DNA from: Pseudorhizobium banfieldiae
GTDB lineage: Bacteria; Pseudomonadota; Alphaproteobacteria; Rhizobiales; Rhizobiaceae
Direction: 5' to 3'
Length of the DNA stretch: 64,000 nt
Assembly: GCF_000967425.1 (NCBI RefSeq)
Contig: NZ_FO082820.1
Span: 1,426,001 to 1,490,000 of the forward strand
Shown here piece after piece: positions 155 to 4,318 of this stretch; position 1 is the stretch's first letter; each line of letters opens with the position of its first letter. The translations under genes were made by a program, and so were the position numbers. Below the pieces are notes generated by a model. That model ran no database searches, was not told where the DNA came from, and was given only the letters and a program-made list of their open reading frames with translations.

Positions 155-4318
<4,164 letters not shown>

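Follow-up and report, generated by a model that had tools for sequence, protein, structure and literature searches.

Replacement of Gln513 by proline in the beta subunit of RNA polymerase is known from the rpoB8 allele of Escherichia coli, in which CAG is changed to CCG (Q513P) and the resulting polymerase is slow moving and shows less terminator read-through (PMC3912069). The allele confers rifampicin resistance, and its enzyme pauses more, elongates more slowly and gives more Rho-dependent termination (PMC8092217). The rpoB8 (B8) polymerase has also been described as "a slow elongating RNA polymerase", which nevertheless failed to suppress the Rho mutants tested (PMC1950744), so that slow elongation and increased termination do not go together in every case. 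In E. coli, Q513P strains are resistant in MH and LB, grow very little in M9, and are more sensitive to streptomycin (PMC10427823). The window analysed here, a stretch of 64,000 nucleotides from Pseudorhizobium banfieldiae, holds an rpoB gene with a proline codon at the corresponding position.

NT-26, an arsenite oxidiser from soil, is a model for arsenite-driven chemolithoautotrophy, and spontaneous Rif-resistant NT-26 reportedly originated with Santini & vanden Hoven 2004; mutants of this sort are commonly selected so that conjugation has a resistant recipient. In PMC6011840, the culture is given as "a rifampicin-resistant (RifR) spontaneous mutant of NT-26 (Santini & vanden Hoven, 2004)", and plasmids were conjugated there into "NT-26 RifR".

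Codon 533 of rpoB

The genome from which the window derives (the source genome; 4,577,425 bases, 3 contigs) gave a single rpoB match, and a second rpoB copy was therefore rejected. Pairwise alignment of the window RpoB with that of E. coli yields 803 identical residues out of 1340 aligned, and it pairs residue 533 with Gln513 of E. coli K-12 MG1655. Window positions 1739-1765 read TCG CAG CTG TCG CCG TTC ATG GAC CAG, which gives the peptide motif SQLSPFMDQ, and it is an A to C change at 1752 that turns the CAG of the relatives into the codon found here. The gene thus carries the change by which an rpoB8-type allele is defined, namely Gln513 to Pro through CAG to CCG.

The other RpoB positions that we take to be related to rifampicin (Val146, Asp516, His526, Arg529, Ser531, Pro564, Ile572 and Arg687) are all unchanged relative to E. 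coli in the pairwise alignment. Besides position 513, the rifampicin-resistance-determining region (RRDR) differs from that of E. coli in Asn518 to Val and Ile530 to Leu, and these two residues (E. coli numbering) are common to the genus and not private to the source genome. The initial annotation had equated Pro533 with E. coli Gln513, had placed its codon one base (A to C at 1752) from CAG, had read the equivalents of Asp516, His526, Arg529 and Ser531 as wild type, and had regarded Q513P as an established rifampicin-resistance change; the frame and the alignment, the CAG codons of the relatives and the E. coli papers (PMC8092217, PMC10427823) agree with it on all of these points.

Table 1. 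Features of the window that bear on the rpoB substitution (window coordinates).
Feature	Position	Strand	Details	Basis
rpoB, RNA polymerase beta subunit	155..4318	+	1387 aa	Open frame from ATG at 155 and translation
RRDR cluster I	1733..1816	+	Window residues 527-554; limits taken to be E. coli residues 507-534	Residue map to E. coli RpoB
Codon 533	1751..1753	+	CCG (Pro), Gln in relatives; E. coli position 513	Frame, alignment, relatives
rpoC, beta' subunit	4486..8715	+		Search of 57 genomes, 56 matched
rpsL (S12; stretch matched by PF00164)	10841..11158	+	G000:C1:1436841-1437158; wild type Lys43 and Lys88	

Elsewhere in the window, a COG3860 RNA (Rfam RF02940, a cis-regulatory motif) was found at 61833-61886 (+) with 74.9 bits, the gathering threshold being 42.5, and directly downstream of it lies an open frame with a DUF2087 domain (62006-62539).

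Rarity of proline at the site

The 100 residues around the site (RpoB residues 483-582) find a match in 56 of 57 genus genomes. All 55 pieces from relatives score 209.9 bits at 99% identity, compared with 213.6 bits for the window against itself, which means that each relative differs from the window by one residue; as the same 55 genomes match the pattern with Gln at the site (55/57, with the codon CAG in all 55), proline is the sole private residue within this stretch. The genus genomes that lack the Gln pattern are the source genome itself and one (G037) that is without any rpoB match. Gln, encoded by CAG, likewise occupies the site in 29/29 relatives with an aligned RpoB. Among 394 genomes sampled from the family, the source genome is the only one to match the Pro pattern; of the other 393, 351 match the Gln pattern and 42 neither pattern. 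With Gln in 55/57 genus and 351/394 family genomes, Pro533 is derived and not ancestral in the lineage, and the idea that proline characterises a whole clade of these rhizobia was rejected, since among the genomes that match either pattern it is present in the source genome only.

The initial annotation had described Gln as nearly invariant at this position, where Gln stands in the 55 genus relatives and in 351 family genomes, and it had named proline in many unselected relatives as the observation that would speak against a selected allele; such relatives were looked for in the genus and the family, and none appeared among the genomes that match either pattern.

A wider search covered 84,980 species genomes with the Pro pattern, which permits zero mismatches and is thus escaped by divergent RRDRs; with the source genome left out, it gave 8 stretches, only 2 of which are rpoB by translation, and proline as a common bacterial state at position 513 was rejected on this basis. 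The two Pro-bearing rpoB genes belong to an Acidobacteria groundwater MAG (L033; 5338-5361, +) and to a Clostridia gut MAG (L039; 5699-5722, -), and in both cases the RRDR around the proline is otherwise normal-looking. When any codon was allowed at the site, the pattern matched 325 of 385 genomes in a class-wide sample, and among the matches listed, which were read by eye, the codon specifies Gln in all but one, this exception being a second match of genome G238 that is only a putative rpoB. Proline at the Gln513 site is therefore very rare, yet it is known outside the laboratory from the two MAGs. It is possible that the polymerases of these two organisms are naturally rifamycin-resistant or slow.

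The remaining polymerase and other resistance genes

For RpoB, the comparison took in 29 of the 55 relatives and 1072 ungapped columns, up to the point where the relatives' loci end; 907 of these columns are invariant among the relatives. At such invariant columns, the source genome has three private changes (S6T, Q533P and K764R), which is an ordinary count, as each of the 29 relatives has between 0 and 4 of them. The number of private changes is thus unremarkable, and it is the place and the kind of Pro533 that stand out. The changes S6T (window 170-172) and K764R (window 2444-2446) are conservative. Residues 347, 791, 974 and 1019 are also absent from all 29 relatives and lie in variable columns. 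The closest of the 29 compared RpoB sequences is 96.9% identical, so that none of the 29 serves as a conspecific control.

In RpoC, no private substitution was found at an invariant column in a comparison with the 29 best-matching relatives (1408 columns), and a compensatory RpoC change was accordingly rejected. A single RpoC residue is absent from all 29 relatives, and this one, at position 3 of the open frame, lies before the likely start. Between rpoC and rpsL, there is an open frame (8812-9762, +) with a di-haem cytochrome c peroxidase (MauG-like) domain.

Rifampicin resistance is also conferred by Arr (rifampicin ADP-ribosyltransferase) and by other inactivating enzymes. The Arr-ms profile (PF12120) found no match in the source genome but did so in 1 of 14 control genomes, and Arr-based resistance was rejected on this ground. 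As usual marker sites we assume Lys43 and Lys88 of rpsL for streptomycin, together with S83 of gyrA; no gyrA marker mutation was found at S83, where the gene is wild type, and, as rpsL likewise has the wild-type residues at its two sites, the idea of a multiply marked laboratory strain was rejected. With no Arr and with wild-type rpsL and gyrA, rpoB is the one gene among those examined that carries a marker mutation.

Identity of the strain

The aioA gene of the source genome is an 845-aa frame, and over a stretch of 817 residues the encoded protein matches 5nqd_A without mismatch, with the same score for 4aay and 8ed4; 4aay is the NT-26 arsenite oxidase (PMC10071563). Contig C1 has 4,239,731 bases, and aioA lies on contig C2 of 322,264 bases, in agreement with the composite 322-kb plasmid described for NT-26 (PMC5613091). 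As 5 kb of the aio region are 100% identical between C2 and the NT-25 plasmid LR723680.1 (118,955 bp; L040, 1-5000), this DNA is common to NT-25 and NT-26, and AioA alone cannot part the two strains; the replicon size favours NT-26. By AioA and replicon size taken together, the source genome is almost certainly that of Rhizobium sp. (Pseudorhizobium banfieldiae) NT-26, which is the type strain of its species (PMC13077888). The identical aio segment is in its own right an observation of shared DNA on replicons of unlike size, the 322-kb C2 and the 119-kb plasmid of NT-25.

Origin of the substitution

As a RifR NT-26 is in use and Pro533 is private, we infer that it was the RifR stock that was sequenced. 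The whole explanation, which we hold with high confidence, would then run as follows. Pro533 is an rpoB point mutation from CAG to CCG, equivalent to rpoB8 (Q513P) of E. coli; the loss of Gln from the rifampicin pocket would result in poor rifampicin binding and hence in a resistant cell; the sequenced stock would be a spontaneous rifampicin-resistant laboratory derivative of NT-26 that served as a conjugation recipient; and, by analogy with rpoB8, the RNA polymerase of this stock would probably be slower and more prone to termination. The initial annotation had offered two readings, a selected rifampicin-resistant derivative and a natural variant. The first gains from the private proline, from the match to NT-26 and from the RifR NT-26 in print (PMC6011840), and the second has become unlikely, as proline is private within genus and family.

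What else could have brought a proline to this site? Wild NT-26 may already have had Pro533 before it entered the laboratory, either because of environmental rifamycins or because of an adaptive polymerase speed. Such a history would be in line with the two MAG lineages (L033 and L039) that bear proline in an ordinary RRDR, and a physiological effect is plausible, as rpoB8-type polymerases change pausing and termination (PMC8092217); moreover, the arsenic-oxidising Ensifer sp. M14 has been classed as rifampicin-resistant with an MIC of 4 mg/L (PMC6115938). However, a natural proline would have to stand beside 393 other family genomes, none of which matches the Pro pattern, and beside 55/55 genus relatives with rpoB that have Gln, Q513P comes at a cost to growth in E. 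coli (PMC10427823, PMC8092217), and the documented RifR selection in NT-26 explains the proline without any further assumption (PMC6011840). We therefore regard an origin before the laboratory as improbable.

It is less probable still that a sequencing or assembly error made CCG of CAG: the difference is a single base and is judged from the assembled sequence alone, but an error would have had to strike by chance one of the few resistance-giving bases among 4.58 Mb, and this in a strain selected for RifR; moreover, the reading frame is uninterrupted, and nothing else unusual was seen in the rest of the RRDR or in RpoC. A proline that is tolerated in this lineage and functionally silent, conferring no resistance, can be given just as little weight: several tuberculosis papers do treat disputed rpoB mutations and discordance between genotype and phenotype, but the site is Gln in the 55 genus genomes whose rpoB could be read besides the source genome and in 351/394 family genomes, and the identical change confers resistance in E. 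coli (PMC10427823, PMC8092217, PMC3912069).

Implications for work with NT-26

Pro533 is thus a mutation of a known kind in a new host, and most likely it reflects a laboratory selection whose product became the reference genome. No paper naming this substitution in NT-26 came up in the literature searched, which is weak evidence of absence, as that literature covers few subscription papers. Since the site is well understood already, the observation is of value for questions of provenance and for the inexpensive direct test that it allows, and it offers no new mechanism. The reference genome of a type strain probably carries a laboratory mutation in a central enzyme of transcription, which is relevant to those who take the NT-26 RpoB into phylogenies or resistance surveys or who study arsenite-dependent transcription. 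Transcription work with the RifR strain would have been done with a slow polymerase if its enzyme is like that of rpoB8. A further-reaching consequence, which we put forward tentatively and consider rather doubtful, would be that the NT-26 reference and the transcription work in the RifR derivative rest on an rpoB8-like, slow and termination-prone polymerase; the natural isolate would then depart from some of the reported features of growth and aio regulation, e.g. from the dependence of aioXSR expression on growth phase. Should stocks of both parent and derivative have been kept, they would permit a direct test of the effect of an rpoB8-like polymerase on the expression of arsenite-oxidation genes.

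Comparison with known systems

Arr systems achieve resistance by an enzyme that inactivates the drug, and in this respect they differ from the source genome, which is without an Arr-ms match. The RifR NT-26 of Santini & vanden Hoven 2004 is of the same species and strain as the source genome, as judged by AioA and plasmid size. For that published RifR strain, no rpoB allele is stated in the passages of PMC6011840 considered here. The phenotypes of rpoB8 are known from E. coli, whereas NT-26 is an alphaproteobacterium, for which they are predicted by analogy. At the level of the allele itself, E. coli rpoB8 and the rpoB of the window share the same residue, the same codons (CAG to CCG) and the same base change, and the main contact residues of the window RpoB are otherwise wild type.
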